DNA from: Peptococcaceae bacterium
GTDB lineage: Bacteria > Bacillota > Peptococcia > Peptococcales > Peptococcaceae
Length of the DNA stretch: 64,000 nt
NCBI GenBank assembly: GCA_017399005.1
Contig: JAFQEO010000023.1
Coordinates: forward strand, 1-64,000
Direction of reading: 5' to 3'
Part shown: in pieces, positions 25,859 to 32,909 of the stretch
Numbering within the stretch: the stretch's first letter is position 1
How the letters are laid out: the number at the start of each line of letters is the position of its first letter
The notes under the pieces: generated by a model
Told to the model about the DNA's origin: nothing
Seen by the model: the letters and a program-made list of their open reading frames with translations, nothing else
The model's database searches: none
Position numbers and translations under genes: made by a program

Positions 25859-25935
25859 TTGAACAACAGAATCCGTATTTTGAAGTACAGCTTTCCTCTT
25901 GTTTTTTCAATACAAAATAAATACTTGACTTATTG

Positions 25936-25983
25936 TTAGACAGATGTCAAAATATAGACAAGGATATATTAGACAAATGTCTA
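25936..25983 (+). promoter_or_regulatory. BlaI/MecI-type operators and promoter
   Basis: TTAGACAGATGTCAA (25936-25950) and TTAGACAAATGTCTA (25969-25983) are two dyads of the TAGACA/TGTCTA type, and an extra half site TAGACA lies at 25955-25960. The second dyad overlaps a TATAAT at 25982-25987, 24 bases before the repressor gene start. This matches the binding sequence of penicillinase repressors and implies autoregulation of the three-gene operon. Confidence 0.8.
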
Positions 25984-26006: not shown

Positions 26007-26381
26007 ATGAAGACTACAAAAAAATTACCGGAAGCAGAACTGGAAATTATGCTGGTGGTGTGGGATGCAGAAGCGGCTGTTACATCAGATTATATTATGG
26101 AGCGGCTGCATAAGGACTGGACAAAACCTACTCTGCTGAAACTTTTAACCAGATTAACAGAACGTGGTTTTCTGCGCTGCAGCAAAGAAGGGCGACACAA
26201 CCTTTATACGGTGCTGGTTCCACGGGAGGATTATGTGCAGGAGGCAAGCGGAACCTTTCTGCAGAAGCTGCACCATAATTCACTGACGAGCCTTGTGGCC
26301 TCGTTATACGACGGGCAGAAAGTGAGCAAAGCAGATTTAGAGGAACTGAAACGATTCATTGAGGAGGCGGAGGAAGAATGA
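26007..26381 (+). CDS. BlaI/MecI-family transcriptional repressor
   Basis: A 124-residue winged-helix repressor (KLPEAELEIMLVVWDAEAA, then TKPTLLKLLTRLTERGF as recognition helix and wing). In the family the dimer is cleaved or released when the membrane protease partner is activated by a cell-wall signal. Its stop overlaps the next start (ATGA), coupling it to the M56 protease. Two tandem operator dyads precede it. No beta-lactamase gene is in view, so the regulated function is probably something other than classic penicillin resistance. Confidence 0.92.
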   Translation: MKTTKKLPEAELEIMLVVWDAEAAVTSDYIMERLHKDWTKPTLLKLLTRLTERGFLRCSKEGRHNLYTVLVPREDYVQEASGTFLQKLHHNSLTSLVASLYDGQKVSKADLEELKRFIEEAEEE

Positions 26382-28669
26382 GCTATCTGGAACCTTTCAT
26401 GCAGACAGTCTTACAAATCAGTATCAGCACGGCAGCCGTGATAGGTTTCCTTTTACTTCTGATTCCTGTATGGCAGCAGCGATACAGTGCCCGCTGGCGT
26501 AAAGTTATCTGGCTGGTGATTGCGATTCGTCTGCTTGTGCCCTTTTCGATAGAGCTTTCGCCGGCACCGGTACAGATACAAATGGATTTTCAGCGCATTG
26601 TGACCGTACATTCGCAGCCGGTTTATACGGATGATATACCGGCCGTGCCGGAATATACCGCAGCGCCGTCTGATCTTGCGGTTAATAACAGTAGCGTGAC
26701 ACCGTCTGATATGACTGCGCAGAACGGCATCGTATGGAACCAGGGGATGATTCTGTCTGTCATCTGGATTGCGGGTGTTCTTGCGTTTGTTTTATGGCAT
26801 GGTGTCCAGTACATTATGTTTCACCGCAAGGTATTTGCCTCTGCAATGCCTTTAGAAGATGGCGACTGGTTATTGAACCATGCCAGTGCAGATATGGATT
26901 TGCACCATTTGCCGGAGGTACTTATCAGCGCCGGGGTACAGAGCCCGATGCTGGTTGGGTTTAAAAAGCCGGTGATAGTACTGCCGGAACGGATTTATGG
27001 AGAGCAGGAATTATTATTGATTCTGCGCCATGAATTGATGCACTATAAACATCATGATTTATGGTATAAGCTGATTCTGCTGGCTGCTAATGCCGTGCAC
27101 TGGTTTAATCCGCTTGTTTACCTGATGCTTCGTCAGGCAGGGCGTGATGTGGAGCAGGTATGCGATGACAATGTGGTAGCCGGGCAGGATATGGCTTATC
27201 GCAAAGCGTACAGCCTGACCATTCTGAACACCATGGCAAATCAGAAAGGGGTTGCATTATCCACCTGTTTGAGTAAAGATGCGCAGAATGTAAAGAAACG
27301 CTTTGCTGGAATCCTGCAGCCGAAGCAGTATAAACGCGGTGCAGCAGTATTTCTTGGAATTGTATTGCTGGCTGCGGTTGCTAGTGGTTGTCTGCGATTT
27401 ACAGAGCCAGTAACAGATAATTTATACCTGAAGCTAGTAGAAGAGTATTTACCAGAAGGGATTACATTTAGTGAAGGCATGACATATGAACAGTACAGTT
27501 CAGAAGATGGCTATACAACGCATTACTGGGCAGACTGGGAGGATACGACTGGTGAAACTTTGGAAGAGGTTCAAAAGAATGCAGCAAACCGATGCTGGAT
27601 TAGCATGGTTACAAATCAAAATAATCAGATACTGGAATACCAGATTAATATAGAACCTGGATATCGCATAAAAGAACAGCTTCCAGAAGTAGCAATAAAT
27701 GAGTCAGAAGCAAGAAAACTTGCAGAAAAATTTCTCAAAAAGAAAGCTGAGATACAAAATTTGCAGTTGAGGGAGTGGGAGCCTGGCCCGGCACAAATTA
27801 TAAAACAGGATTTGCCAGAAGGGTTTATCGGTTGGATTTCAGATGGCGATATAAAGAATTATCATCATGAGATACTGGTTGATATGCAGCATGGTTATAT
27901 TTGTGCTTACAGGTATTATTTTGACGATGACCAGGAAAATCCTATATCTTTATGGGAGTACACAGGCTATTTAGATGCGTTTCCGTGGGAGAATACCGAA
28001 GATTCATCGCTGTTTTCTGACGATTACGATGGCGATGGGAAAACTGACCGGGTGTATCGTTCCGCGGTGCAGGAGGAAGGCTATTACCAGTATCAGATTG
28101 AATTTGCCAGTGGCGAGGTGCTGAAACTTGAGAAGCCTGTTTCCAATATCGGTTATCCGAGGATTGACGGTGCGGATGTAACCGGAGATGGACAGAACGA
28201 GATTATTTTTCAGGTGGGGTATCCAACCAGCACCAATCCGTTAGCTTTTGGTGAACTGGTGGTATATGAACAACAGAAAGGAAATTATCTGCCGATGCAG
28301 CTGCCGTTTGAAGATGGGGAGGAACCGTATCAGAACCTGCTGACGGTAATATACAGCAAAGCGGATGGTCAGGCTGTAAAAGTATCGGTTCCGGGAACGG
28401 ATTTTGCGCAGGTTGTGCCGATTGAGGATGAGAATTTATGGAACGGATACCAGTACAGTTCCACCTATACCCGGGGCGAAACCATGCAGCACTCTATCTG
28501 GGCATATAAAATCCGGAATGTGGACGGCAAAGCACAGTTAATATGCAGCATTCAGTTGTTTGATAAATGGTCAGAATGGGGGCTGGATATTACCCTTGGT
28601 TATAAAAACGGCAGAATGATAATTGATGAAATTGAATTCTGCGAGGATATTTATGCAGAATGGGCATGA
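26378..28669 (+). CDS. M56 (BlaR1/MecR1-type) membrane metalloprotease sensor 1
   Basis: A 763-residue protein. Residues 1-340 are the M56 protease part with four or so membrane helices. The zinc motif is LRHELMHYKHHD near residue 215, with the third-ligand region DVEQVCDDN. Residues after about 345 are outside the membrane and are not a penicillin-binding domain. They contain one copy of a domain starting LVEEYLPEGITF and then FG-GAP-like calcium motifs (DDYDGDGKTDRVY, DVTGDGQNEIIF). The extracellular part near 27.4-27.96 kb is richer in A/T codons than the flanks. It is coupled to the repressor and followed by a paralogue. Confidence 0.88.
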   Translation: MSYLEPFMQTVLQISISTAAVIGFLLLLIPVWQQRYSARWRKVIWLVIAIRLLVPFSIELSPAPVQIQMDFQRIVTVHSQPVYTDDIPAVPEYTAAPSDLAVNNSSVTPSDMTAQNGIVWNQGMILSVIWIAGVLAFVLWHGVQYIMFHRKVFASAMPLEDGDWLLNHASADMDLHHLPEVLISAGVQSPMLVGFKKPVIVLPERIYGEQELLLILRHELMHYKHHDLWYKLILLAANAVHWFNPLVYLMLRQAGRDVEQVCDDNVVAGQDMAYRKAYSLTILNTMANQKGVALSTCLSKDAQNVKKRFAGILQPKQYKRGAAVFLGIVLLAAVASGCLRFTEPVTDNLYLKLVEEYLPEGITFSEGMTYEQYSSEDGYTTHYWADWEDTTGETLEEVQKNAANRCWISMVTNQNNQILEYQINIEPGYRIKEQLPEVAINESEARKLAEKFLKKKAEIQNLQLREWEPGPAQIIKQDLPEGFIGWISDGDIKNYHHEILVDMQHGYICAYRYYFDDDQENPISLWEYTGYLDAFPWENTEDSSLFSDDYDGDGKTDRVYRSAVQEEGYYQYQIEFASGEVLKLEKPVSNIGYPRIDGADVTGDGQNEIIFQVGYPTSTNPLAFGELVVYEQQKGNYLPMQLPFEDGEEPYQNLLTVIYSKADGQAVKVSVPGTDFAQVVPIEDENLWNGYQYSSTYTRGETMQHSIWAYKIRNVDGKAQLICSIQLFDKWSEWGLDITLGYKNGRMIIDEIEFCEDIYAEWA

Positions 28670-28693
28670 CAGTAACGAAAGGAGCGAAGAGGC

Positions 28694-31600
28694 ATGGAAA
28701 CTTTCATGCAGACAATCTTACAAATCAGTATCAGCACGGCGGCTGTGACAGGGCTTCTGCTTCTTCTCGTTCCCGTATGGCAGCAGCGATACAGCGCCCG
28801 ATGGCGTAAAGTTATCTGGCTGGTAATTGCAATCCGTTTGCTTGTGCCGTTTTCTCTGGAATTGCCGGAGGCGCCGGTGGTTATGGATGTGAATCTGGAA
28901 GAACAGACGGGGTTTACGATTCCGGTTCAGGAAGCAGCACATACAGAAAACCGTTATGATACGGCAGCAGTGCCAGACAATCAGACGGTTACAGTAAAAC
29001 CGGAAGTGCAGAACTATGCAGAAACAACTATTGCCCCTATGGTACCGGTGATGGTGCAGGAGCAGGAGCCAGTATCTTACGGTACCATTCTGTTTGCCGT
29101 ATGGATTTTAGGATTAGCTGTTTTTGCCATCTGGCATAGTGTGCAGTATGTTATATTTCGCCGCAAGGTAGCTGCCTCTGCAATGCCTTTAGAAGATGGC
29201 GACTGGCTGCTGAACAATGCCAGTACAGATATGGCTTTGCACCGTTTACCGAATATATTTATCAGCGCCAAGGTACAGAGCCCGATGCTGGTTGGGTTTA
29301 AAAAGCCGGTGATAGTACTGCCGGAACGGATTTACGGAGAGCAGGAATTATTATTAATTCTGCGCCATGAACTGATGCATTATAAACATCATGACTTATG
29401 GTATAAACTGCTTCTGCTGGCTGCCAATGCGATGCACTGGTTTAATCCGCTTGTTTATCTGATGCTTCGCCAGGCAGGGCGGGATGTGGAGCAGGTGTGT
29501 GATGACAATGTGGTAGCCGGGCAGGATATGGCTTATCGCAAAGCGTACAGCATGACCATTCTGAATACCATGGCAAATCAGAAAGGCGTTGCGTTATCTA
29601 CTTATCTCAGCAAAGATGCACAGAATACAAAGAAACGCTTTGCCAGAATTCTGCAGCCGAAGCAGTATAAACGTGGTGCAGCAGTATTTCTTGGCATTGT
29701 ATTGCTGGCGGTAGCTGCCAGCGGATGTTTACAGATTGGTGAAAAGGATGCCGGTGTAGAAGCGTATGAACAAATAGCAGAGTTTCTGCCGGAAGATGCC
29801 ATCCACAATCCAACCGTGTATGAAGTGATGGGCGAAGCAGATGAAGAATACCTTATGTATATCTGGATAGAAGGTGCATATGAGGTAACAGCGGAAGAAG
29901 CAAAAGAAGCACGCTTAAACGATGGAGCCTTGTCCTATGGCCGGGATGGGAAAGATTATCTGTATGACAGAGCGTTAATGCTGTGGGTATCGCAGGAAGA
30001 TGGCCATATCGCGAGTATGGGGTATGACAACCGGACGATGGATAGCGCAAAACCATCAGAAATCGGCCTCGATAAAGAAAAACGGGATAAATATGTACAG
30101 AAAATTGCGAAAACTTTAATTAACGATGGCGAAAATCTGACTTTCAAAGAACAGAATATTGCTAGTAATAATGATGGAAATGCTATTCGGGGCACATACA
30201 CCACCGGTACTATGGCGGATATAGAAATGTATACGATGCGGCTCAATTATCAGCATGGGTATCTGGAACAGTTTATGTATTACGGTCCGGATGCGTGGAC
30301 ACAAGGCAAGGTATCTCGGGAATATGATATTACCATAGAAGGCATGACGGAAACTGTAGAACTTACCATGAATCGCCGACCGGATTATTATGTGCTGTTT
30401 GCCGATGCAGAAAGGTTTAACAGCCAGACTGACGGTGAGATGATAGAGGATTGTTTTACAGATAAATATGTTCTGGCTGGCGATGATGAAACAACCCCGG
30501 TAAAAACATATATGGCTGTGAGTTATACACCGGATTGTACTATGGAGGAATGGCGGCAGACGGAAAAAACGGGGAAAACATATGCCTATACACTTCCGCA
30601 GATACAGCCGGGGGATGAATGGACGCCTGGCTGGAACCGAACCGGACAGACAAAAATTTTCCCGGAAGATCCAAATCGAATCTGGCAGGTGCTGAAACCG
30701 GCAAAAGAGATATCCGGAATCAGTAACATCTGTTATGCTACATCGTACCGAGGCGGTGTGATGGCCATGTATATCAGTTATCCGGATGCATATGCCGAAG
30801 GCTGGGGCAGCCGGATGCATGCAATGGCAGATACGCTGGTGCTGGCAGCAAGAGAAGATGAAAGTCGAGCCAATGCAGCTGCAGAAGATGAAGGCGTTGT
30901 GCTTTATAATAAAGTAGCACCATGGCTTCCGGAAAATGCAGTGTCTGACCCGCAGGTGTATCAAAAAAATCTGGTACCGCAAAGTGAGCGGATCGAATAT
31001 ATCTGGGATCAGAACTGGGTAAAAATGGCTGCTAGCAGTCAGGCATATCCGGAGCCAGACTATCCGCAGGGTTTGACAATCAGTGTAGATAATAAAACTG
31101 GGGAGATTATGAGTTTCCATTACTGGCTGGATGAAAAACAGCGAACTTTGCCGGAAGCAAGAGAAGGTTTTCAGAACACGCTGGCTCCTCGCAGGGAATA
31201 TGTGCAGCAGTTTGCGGAAACGTTTATCGAGAATGGTAAAACCATGACGGTAAATGTAAACAGGGAAGATACAACCAGACAGGCTTTTATTGTAACAGAC
31301 GAAAAAAATCATTATGAGTATCAGGTTTTTGTCAGCAAGGAATATGGACATATATGGCGTTTTGCAAAAACATATAACAATGAATTGCTGAAAGAACAGG
31401 CTGTAGAATGGCTGAAAGAACAATATTGTGAAAATGTATCTGGAGACAGCTTTAAATTGGCTGATTATGTTTTTGTAGAGCATGGCGAACGGCAGCAGAT
31501 GCTGGATGATAATCGATATGAACTGTACTTAATGCATAATTTGGAATGGACACCGATAATATCAGAACAGAAACAGAAAAAAATCAACGGGATGTCAGAT

Positions 31601-32101
31601 GAAACGCAGACCTATTACCAGAGGATTCTGGATGATGAGGGAAGATTTGTTGTCAGTCAGTTAAACCATTATCCAATACTGCTGATGGTTCAGGGAAATG
31701 TAAAATGGAATGGAAAACTGGATATGTCCAGTTTAAAACTGTATGACGGCGATATAGAGATTACAGAGGAATACTGGCAGCAGTTGAATGATAAACTGGA
31801 AATCTCATGGACAGCGGCCAGCTATGCCAATGCCTGGGCGCATAAAAATCCAGAACGAATGTCGCTATATGGAGTGACCGAAGGAATTGAGTTTTCTGAT
31901 GAGATATACCATGTTGCACAAAGCGAGTTTGTAACGCAGGCACAGCTTGCAGCCCGTAGCTATAATGGCAGTGCAGGATTGATTGCAATACAGATACCGC
32001 TTCCTTTAGAAGAAAATATGTCGGTTATGCATTATCTTGACATGGCGTTGGAAAAACAAAACGGTGAATGGTTTGTAACCAAAGCTCACTTGAAAGAATA
32101 G
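28694..32101 (+). CDS. M56 (BlaR1/MecR1-type) membrane metalloprotease sensor 2
   Basis: A 1135-residue paralogue of the preceding protein. Residues 1-350 are nearly identical to it, including LRHELMHYKHHD. Many DNA differences between the copies fall at silent positions, so the duplication is under purifying selection or gene conversion. The outside part is longer and has two tandem copies of the domain seen once in sensor 1 (starting IAEFLPEDAIHNPTVY at about residue 358 and VAPWLPENAVSDPQVY at about 740). It lacks the FG-GAP-like region. A different ligand is implied. The two sensors probably feed the same BlaI-type repressor. Confidence 0.85.
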   Translation: METFMQTILQISISTAAVTGLLLLLVPVWQQRYSARWRKVIWLVIAIRLLVPFSLELPEAPVVMDVNLEEQTGFTIPVQEAAHTENRYDTAAVPDNQTVTVKPEVQNYAETTIAPMVPVMVQEQEPVSYGTILFAVWILGLAVFAIWHSVQYVIFRRKVAASAMPLEDGDWLLNNASTDMALHRLPNIFISAKVQSPMLVGFKKPVIVLPERIYGEQELLLILRHELMHYKHHDLWYKLLLLAANAMHWFNPLVYLMLRQAGRDVEQVCDDNVVAGQDMAYRKAYSMTILNTMANQKGVALSTYLSKDAQNTKKRFARILQPKQYKRGAAVFLGIVLLAVAASGCLQIGEKDAGVEAYEQIAEFLPEDAIHNPTVYEVMGEADEEYLMYIWIEGAYEVTAEEAKEARLNDGALSYGRDGKDYLYDRALMLWVSQEDGHIASMGYDNRTMDSAKPSEIGLDKEKRDKYVQKIAKTLINDGENLTFKEQNIASNNDGNAIRGTYTTGTMADIEMYTMRLNYQHGYLEQFMYYGPDAWTQGKVSREYDITIEGMTETVELTMNRRPDYYVLFADAERFNSQTDGEMIEDCFTDKYVLAGDDETTPVKTYMAVSYTPDCTMEEWRQTEKTGKTYAYTLPQIQPGDEWTPGWNRTGQTKIFPEDPNRIWQVLKPAKEISGISNICYATSYRGGVMAMYISYPDAYAEGWGSRMHAMADTLVLAAREDESRANAAAEDEGVVLYNKVAPWLPENAVSDPQVYQKNLVPQSERIEYIWDQNWVKMAASSQAYPEPDYPQGLTISVDNKTGEIMSFHYWLDEKQRTLPEAREGFQNTLAPRREYVQQFAETFIENGKTMTVNVNREDTTRQAFIVTDEKNHYEYQVFVSKEYGHIWRFAKTYNNELLKEQAVEWLKEQYCENVSGDSFKLADYVFVEHGERQQMLDDNRYELYLMHNLEWTPIISEQKQKKINGMSDETQTYYQRILDDEGRFVVSQLNHYPILLMVQGNVKWNGKLDMSSLKLYDGDIEITEEYWQQLNDKLEISWTAASYANAWAHKNPERMSLYGVTEGIEFSDEIYHVAQSEFVTQAQLAARSYNGSAGLIAIQIPLPLEENMSVMHYLDMALEKQNGEWFVTKAHLKE

Positions 32102-32110
32102 CGATAGCAA

Positions 32111-32143
32111 AACGGCTGTGGCGAAATCGTCACAGCCGTTTGT
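32111..32143. repeat. Hairpin repeat, left copy, flanking hicBA
   Basis: A 33-base sequence, identical at 32877-32909, that folds as AACGGCTGTG-loop-CACAGCCGTT. It lies just after the second sensor gene and before hicB and could terminate both. The second copy is in the same orientation on the other side of hicBA. Confidence 0.8.
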
Positions 32144-32149
32144 GTAAAT

Positions 32150-32533
32150 TCAGTTAATGCCCAATTCCCGCAGTAGCCCTGCCTGCAGCACTTTTGAAAA
32201 GTTGATATTGTGTGCAACGGCTTCATCATTGAGCCATTCTGGAATCGTTAAGGTCTTTTTAACAGCCTTGTTCTTTTTGCAGTATTTATCCGGATTACAG
32301 GATACATAACTGGTTACCCCGTCTTCTGGAATAATGGAGGCCAGATTCGATGCTGCCGGAAGCGGCTGCTGATGATCCAGAAGAGAACTGAGATGGACGG
32401 CCAGTGCTTCCTGTGCATTGGTCAGTGCATCTTCAAGTGTGCTGCCGTCAGAATAACAGCCTGGAATATCCGGAAATTCCACCCAGTAACTGCCATCTTC
32501 CTGATGAAACACAGCAGGATAAACTTTAATCAT
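32150..32533 (-). CDS. hicB: HicB-family antitoxin
   Basis: A 127-residue antitoxin. The N-terminal partial RNase-H-like fold carries YWVEFPDIPGCYSDGSTLEDA, the HicB signature, and the C-terminal part (IPEWLNDEAVAHNINFSKVLQ) is a ribbon-helix-helix-like DNA-binding domain. It neutralises HicA and probably represses its own promoter through the 12-bp palindrome at 32756-32767. It overlaps hicA by 8 bases. Confidence 0.93.
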   Translation of the reverse strand: MIKVYPAVFHQEDGSYWVEFPDIPGCYSDGSTLEDALTNAQEALAVHLSSLLDHQQPLPAASNLASIIPEDGVTSYVSCNPDKYCKKNKAVKKTLTIPEWLNDEAVAHNINFSKVLQAGLLRELGIN

Positions 32534-32723
32534 CCAAATTACCTCCTTTTAAGCCGGTTTGTTTTAAAATACTCTGCAGTAAGCCTTTTTTAATATCACC
32601 ATTTCCATGGACTGGTACGGTAATGGTATCATTACCCTTTTTTAAAACATGATGACTGCCGTGAATCCGGTCGATTTTCCAGCCATGCTTCTGCAGTAAC
32701 CGTAGTAATTCTTTACCGGTCAT
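32526..32723 (-). CDS. hicA: HicA-family mRNA interferase toxin
   Basis: A 65-residue double-stranded-RNA-binding-like toxin that cleaves mRNA independently of the ribosome in this family. The catalytic His lies in IHGSHHVLKK, and VPVHGNGDIKKGLLQSIL matches the family core. Toxin before antitoxin is the usual hicAB order. It has a good AAGGAG ribosome site, nine bases upstream of the ATG at 32723. Confidence 0.93.
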   Translation of the reverse strand: MTGKELLRLLQKHGWKIDRIHGSHHVLKKGNDTITVPVHGNGDIKKGLLQSILKQTGLKGGNLDD

Positions 32724-32876: not shown

Positions 32877-32909
32877 AACGGCTGTGGCGAAATCGTCACA
32901 GCCGTTTGT
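32877..32909. repeat. Hairpin repeat, right copy, flanking hicBA
   Basis: Identical over 33 bases to 32111-32143 and in the same orientation. It follows the membrane protein gene that converges from the right, so it may serve as its terminator. Together the two copies bracket the hicBA operon and its promoter. Confidence 0.8.

Follow-up and report, generated by a model that had tools for sequence, protein, structure and literature searches.

How do two adjoining membrane receptors share one repressor while carrying different outer halves, and where along the protein does the common part give way to the distinct one? An operon in a 64,000-nucleotide stretch of contig JAFQEO010000023.1 (the window), part of a 2.4-Mb draft genome, raises this question. 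Peptococcaceae metagenome assemblies were the closest named relatives in the search. The genome of the window is labelled G000 here, relatives are G001, G003, G004 and G005, and fetched loci carry L-numbers. The sequence points to a gut bacterium with two adjoining M56 membrane sensors and one BlaI repressor common to both, in the same operon. Both M56 open reading frames (ORFs) follow the BlaI gene, where an earlier note on this DNA had placed them:

26007..26381, + strand: BlaI/MecI-family repressor, 124 amino acids (aa) (PF03965, E 7.8e-28; MecI alignment)
26378..28669, + strand: M56 sensor 1, 763 aa (PF05569, E 3.5e-51)
28694..32101, + strand: M56 sensor 2, 1135 aa, with its own AGGAG ribosome-binding site in intergenic sequence (PF05569, E 1.1e-50)

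The explanation that we lean towards, on balance, is a self-regulating BlaI-M56 module with two receptors, whose protease halves are homogenised and whose sensors are attached through a lipoprotein-type joint. The evidence is strong for gene conversion, and the sequence evidence for a lipobox at the joint is good. Three points thereby extend the earlier note: the protease halves appear to be kept alike by gene conversion and not only by selection, the operator appears confined to the operon, and the joint has the form of a lipobox.

The start of sensor 1 overlaps the BlaI stop by 4 nt (ATGA). Both sensors keep the HExxH zinc site, as HELMH at residue 218 (sensor 1) and 225 (sensor 2), and this motif, the M56 domain and the adjoining repressor with paired operator dyads mark them as BlaR1-type transducers. 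BlaR1/MecR1-BlaI/MecI of S. aureus and B. licheniformis share the M56 zinc protease with HExxH, the domain order, a BlaI-family repressor, a promoter with two operator dyads and a peptidase-sensitive joint between the last transmembrane (TM) helix and the sensor, which is predicted from sequence in the present case. They differ in having one receptor per repressor. The earlier note was also right that this operon has no penicillin-binding domain (no Pfam match in the whole sensor proteins or their outer parts) and no beta-lactamase nearby: neither that nor a resistant penicillin-binding protein (PBP) gene lies among the flanking genes examined, and matches to PF13354, a class-A-type beta-lactamase model, occur only on other contigs of the genome. 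The NCBIfam model blaR1_generic covers only the N-terminal half of the sensors, at 113-118 bits against a cut-off of 400. Lacking both the sensor domain and a linked resistance gene, the locus is by its gene content a real, conserved two-receptor BlaI-M56 operon and not a BlaR1/MecR1 beta-lactam sensor proper. What is known of BlaR1-type receptors comes mostly from beta-lactam resistance, where a signal peptidase separates the sensor from the last TM helix. The cyanobacterial copper switch PetP/PetR is made of BlaR1/BlaI homologues that serve a signal other than beta-lactams; its signal and regulated genes differ from those of this operon.

The joint at the fourth transmembrane helix

27389..27391, + strand: candidate lipobox cysteine Cys338, at the TM4 end of sensor 1 (LAAVASGC; alignment of relatives)
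29726..29728, + strand: candidate lipobox cysteine Cys345, at the TM4 end of sensor 2 (LAVAASGC; alignment of relatives)

TM4 ends in ASGCL or ISGCL; SGCL is invariant among the aligned relatives, while most of TM4 is variable. The end has the composition of a lipobox, with [GAS]C after a hydrophobic stretch and a positive charge before it. In a non-redundant M56 set this pattern fits 25 of 61 TM4 ends, compared with 0, 0 and 2 of about 60 ends for TM1, TM2 and TM3, respectively, and 6% of shuffled sequences. It is present at TM4 in 46 of the 91 proteins of a second M56 set, with at least 18 state changes on a quick tree. Glycine, alanine or serine precedes 50 of 68 TM4-end cysteines against a background of 29% (p 5e-14, a value that overstates independence because the rows of the M56 sets are related). 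Leucine is preferred at -3 and serine or threonine at +2, and the sequences after the cysteine often resemble lipoprotein tethers. Two free-standing relatives of an outer domain of sensor 2 (the D domain below; G004:C224 and G005:C10) start with a lipoprotein signal, LTGC, and the genome contains both lspA and lgt. Among open-licence papers, no mention of a lipobox in M56 proteins was found.

S. aureus BlaR1 is cut by signal peptidase I at the boundary of its last TM helix with the sensor (PMC9834060), where the present sensors have a putative lipobox. By analogy, we propose that the outer half receives a lipid and that signal peptidase II makes the cut here. TM4 would be a lipoprotein signal, so that Lgt would lipidate Cys338 and Cys345 and signal peptidase II could cut there, leaving a lipid-anchored extracellular sensor beside the protease core. 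The outer modules may read envelope signals directly or by altering access to the TM4 joint. Such a signal would switch the cytoplasmic zinc protease, BlaI would be cleaved at its aligned scissile position (Ser99-Leu100 in the MecI alignment), and the operon would be de-repressed. After such a cut, the lipid-anchored sensor might still signal to the core, or cutting might terminate the signal. The alike protease halves would let both receptors cleave one BlaI, and the two receptors might form mixed, domain-swapped dimers. Co-change between the P1' residue of the BlaI cleavage site and that of the M56 self-cleavage loop (both leucine here) was considered and dropped, leucine with phenylalanine being the commonest combination in 71 BlaI-M56 pairs.

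Several points weigh against this explanation. First, lipidation, cleavage and signalling are all read from sequence, and sequences for the M56 survey were gathered mainly through their similarity to this sensor, giving an uneven sample. Second, the S. aureus cut has been proposed to serve turnover and not signalling, BlaR1 signals intact (PMC9834060), and a severed sensor would lose the covalent path that BlaR1 uses. Third, a second tandem of M56 genes in the same genome (G000:C14) has no lipobox, so the two-receptor arrangement is independent of it. Fourth, the gene-conversion result described below comes from two genomes with complete pairs; the operator scan used one pattern with at most one mismatch, which degenerate targets could escape; and the outer model of sensor 1, built from the two sequences available, reached a predicted local distance difference test (pLDDT) score of 37 and was excluded from the fold search.

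Intact signalling by BlaR1, the lipobox-free tandem and the purifying selection on both sensor genes would equally suit an ordinary BlaR1-like pair, in which the sensors stay covalently joined, the TM4 cysteine is a mere TM-end residue, the signal passes through TM4 and the first extracellular loop (EL1), and the duplication is kept for dosage or for two ligands. This is a serious possibility, though we judge it somewhat improbable; it is opposed by the cysteine motif, which has full lipobox composition, is invariant in the lineage and recurs in about half of the larger M56 set.

The lipoprotein reading can be widened, tentatively and at less than even chances. A large share of M56 receptors may be lipoprotein-protease fusions in which TM4 is an internal lipoprotein signal, signal peptidase II releases the sensor after lipidation, and signalling proceeds through a two-part receptor or through the cut itself; tandem receptors would then share interchangeable cores kept alike by gene conversion. 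If many relatives do carry a lipoprotein cutting site at this joint, M56 receptors can deal with their sensor in a second manner, a step that a single drug (globomycin) and a single cysteine mutant could probe. Among the Clostridia, non-PBP M56 receptors such as M56-DUF4825 likewise form BlaI-M56 pairs with varied outer domains, and several of them carry a TM4 lipobox and DUF4825 or DUF4829. In the loci sampled, each BlaI of this kind has one receptor, unlike here, and the outer domains are different.

Outer domains and the operator

The outer halves are described with four labels: Y, YcdB/YpeB-like; D, Mog1/PsbP-like; N, NTF2-like with linker; and F, FG-GAP-like. The labels come from alignments and the sensor-2 model, and N in the first sensor of G001 and in G005 was assigned by eye and alignment only.

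27389..27952, + strand: juxtamembrane Y domain of sensor 1 (hhalign probability 96% against the Y domains of sensor 2, E 1.7e-9; DUF4901 at E 0.012, below cut-off)
28022..28666, + strand: FG-GAP-like C-terminal region of sensor 1 (PF01839 at E 0.011 and PF13517 at E 0.038, neither reaching cut-off; kept in the orthologue)
29726..30373, + strand: Y domain copy A of sensor 2 (118 when scored against copy B, shuffled sequences 33.8 +/- 5.4; alignment)
30371..30853, + strand: D domain of sensor 2, related to free-standing lipoproteins (model residues 216-376; PsbP, LpqN, DcrB and RseB C-domain, Z 6.7-9.2)
30869..31573, + strand: Y domain copy B of sensor 2, plus the first part of the region that follows (model residues 386-550; YpeB C-domain)
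31763..32098, + strand: NTF2-like C-terminal domain of sensor 2 (model residues 610-790; RsgI9 S1C-NTF2, Z 6.9)

The outer parts differ in length and domains, as had been claimed, but sensor 1 begins with a divergent copy of the same juxtamembrane domain as sensor 2. FG-GAP-like motifs are indeed present in sensor 1 (DYDGDGKTDRV and DVTGDGQNEII) and largely kept in the orthologue, but Pfam scores fall below cut-off (PF01839, 16.1 bits against 22.1; PF13517, 15.0 against 26.9). Sensor 2 does contain two copies of one domain, but not in tandem: some 180 residues of another domain separate them. The domain order is Y-F and Y-D-Y-N in G000, Y-N-F and Y-D-Y-N in G001, which carries the same operon, and Y-N in the single sensor of G005; fragments in G003 and G004 read Y-D.

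The earlier note had called for dN/dS (nonsynonymous to synonymous substitution) along the genes. It is about 0.2 for the orthologous outer halves (dN 0.33 and 0.41; dS 1.8 and 1.9, near saturation), indicating purifying selection on both and that both appear functional. By these comparisons the outer halves are older, kept by orthology under purifying selection, and vary by domain gain or loss. The proposal of one repressor serving two sensors fits these values, the single BlaI of the operon, the zinc motif in both sensors and the operator pair kept in relatives. The two sensors could possibly read two different envelope signals, with the juxtamembrane domain common to both.

Structure prediction, also called for, succeeded for the outer part of sensor 2 (mean pLDDT 71) and failed for that of sensor 1. 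Fold matches of the sensor-2 model are domain-level VIA-align results, in which Z below 8 may reflect only common arrangements. Y copy B resembles the YpeB C-domain (Z 11.8, root-mean-square deviation 4.0, 133 aligned), and YycH resembles the outer domains at Z 7.2-7.6. Whole-length Foldseek matches were set aside at TM-scores of about 0.1, and a PDB sequence search with outer-domain profiles gave chance-level matches only. The outer domains thus share predicted folds with the envelope regulators YpeB, YycH and RsgI; those are not M56 proteins, and a shared function need not follow.

Expression of the operon appears to be governed from a promoter that holds one dyad between its hexamers:

25925..25953, + strand: sigma-70-like operon promoter, TTGACT-17 nt-CAAAAT (consensus scan only; kept in the relatives' alignment)
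25936..25948, + strand: BlaI-type operator dyad 1, TTAGACAGATGTC, flanked by the -35 and -10 hexamers (kept in 5 genomes of the genus)
25969..25981, + strand: BlaI-type operator dyad 2, TTAGACAAATGTC, 33 nt downstream of dyad 1 (kept in 5 genomes of the genus)

Exact operator sites occur twice in the genome, both in this promoter. Allowing one mismatch adds only 2 sites, both within coding sequence, and the idea of BlaI targets in other operons was therefore dropped. Since the non-coding matches lie only at its own promoter, the scan suggests, within the limits of its pattern, that the operon is autoregulated and has no other targets. The genome also has an orphan BlaI-family gene with no M56 gene adjoining (L056, G000:C7, 1477-1860).

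The folds and the self-contained operator would both suit a module whose outer domains are mainly structural, or act in envelope homeostasis like YpeB/YycH partners. Such a module would gauge envelope integrity and set its own level, and would not sense a small ligand. We consider this a real possibility, though less likely than not: the resemblance extends to the YpeB C-domain, YycH, LpqN and the RseB C-domain, but fold similarity shows no function, and the weaker of these scores may reflect only common arrangements.

Two free-standing predicted lipoproteins in the fetched loci (L148, 1288-2019; L155, 1324-2019) are related to the D domain of sensor 2, and the one in L155 lies near a gene that reads, by eye, like a sigma factor. 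Another M56 protein of G000 (L005, G000:C17, 1489-2955) has a C-terminal part reminiscent, again by eye, of an M23 peptidase domain.

Likeness of the protease halves

26558..26743, + strand: EL1 of sensor 1, spanning residues ~61-122; the protease half diverges here (identity with sensor 2, 20%)

The two protease halves had been described as almost identical over about 340 residues. This holds for the core (residues 179-338, 92% identity) and for TM1-2 (88%), but not for EL1 or for TM3 and its linker (66%), and overall identity is 72% over 355 aligned positions. The many silent differences noted earlier are there, with dS of 0.34-0.66 in the conserved parts.

Comparison with G001 provides strong evidence for gene conversion. 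First, core dS between the copies within a genome is 0.34 in G000 and 0.55 in G001, compared with about 1.1 between orthologues; low dS between paralogues together with high dS between orthologues argues against protein-level selection as the cause. Second, informative sites of the protease half are 100 genome-type, 9 orthologue-type and 2 cross, whereas those of the first outer domain (Y) are 6, 122 and 8, respectively, and the switch from one signal to the other falls within TM4. Third, the approximately unbiased (AU) test rejects the orthologue grouping of the protease halves (p = 2e-44 and 8e-5). The outer halves are orthologous between genomes, so the duplication is older than the split of the two lineages. 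Gene conversion thus appears to homogenise the protease halves of an older duplication, in tracts that end in TM4. EL1 has been converted too in G001 (dS 0.11) and remains unconverted in G000 (dS 1.7); the idea that each EL1 is matched to its own sensor is weakened, because both G001 sensors carry nearly the same EL1. The locus catches gene conversion and domain gain or loss splitting a receptor at one border, and so shows at which point its output and input modules are exchangeable.

An old duplication followed by strong purifying selection, or a recent duplication arising separately in each genome, is a very improbable substitute for gene conversion: the core is functionally constrained, with low dN, but the contrast in dS already contradicts this account, the orthologous outer halves date the duplication before the split, the AU tests reject the grouping it needs, and separate duplications would require an exchange of outer halves, which is recombination again.

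The lipobox-free tandem, a second BlaI-M56-M56 set (L007, G000:C14, 5358-11362), has protease halves 88-93% identical including EL1 and outer ends about 30% identical; we count this similar pattern in favour of gene conversion. In G003, the ends of two contigs share an exact 24-base overlap; if they are adjacent, the order there would be BlaI-M56-M56. Among the other fetched loci, adjoining M56 genes were flagged only at L039 (1360-2406), where two short M56-like ORFs, 202 and 146 aa long and separated by a stop, are possibly one broken gene.

Neighbouring genes

A CysE-like hexapeptide transferase and CysS lie upstream of the operon; a HicBA pair, SIR2, a DinB-type polymerase and an extracytoplasmic function (ECF) sigma factor lie downstream. 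HicB was not seen at the corresponding place downstream of sensor 2 in the G001 ORF list. The operon probably ends at a hairpin:

32111..32143, + strand: hairpin downstream of sensor 2, a 33-nt palindromic repeat that recurs unchanged at 32877-32909

In the terminator scan, the second copy scores as a terminator. The two identical repeats bracket the HicB-HicA pair (32150-32723, minus strand).

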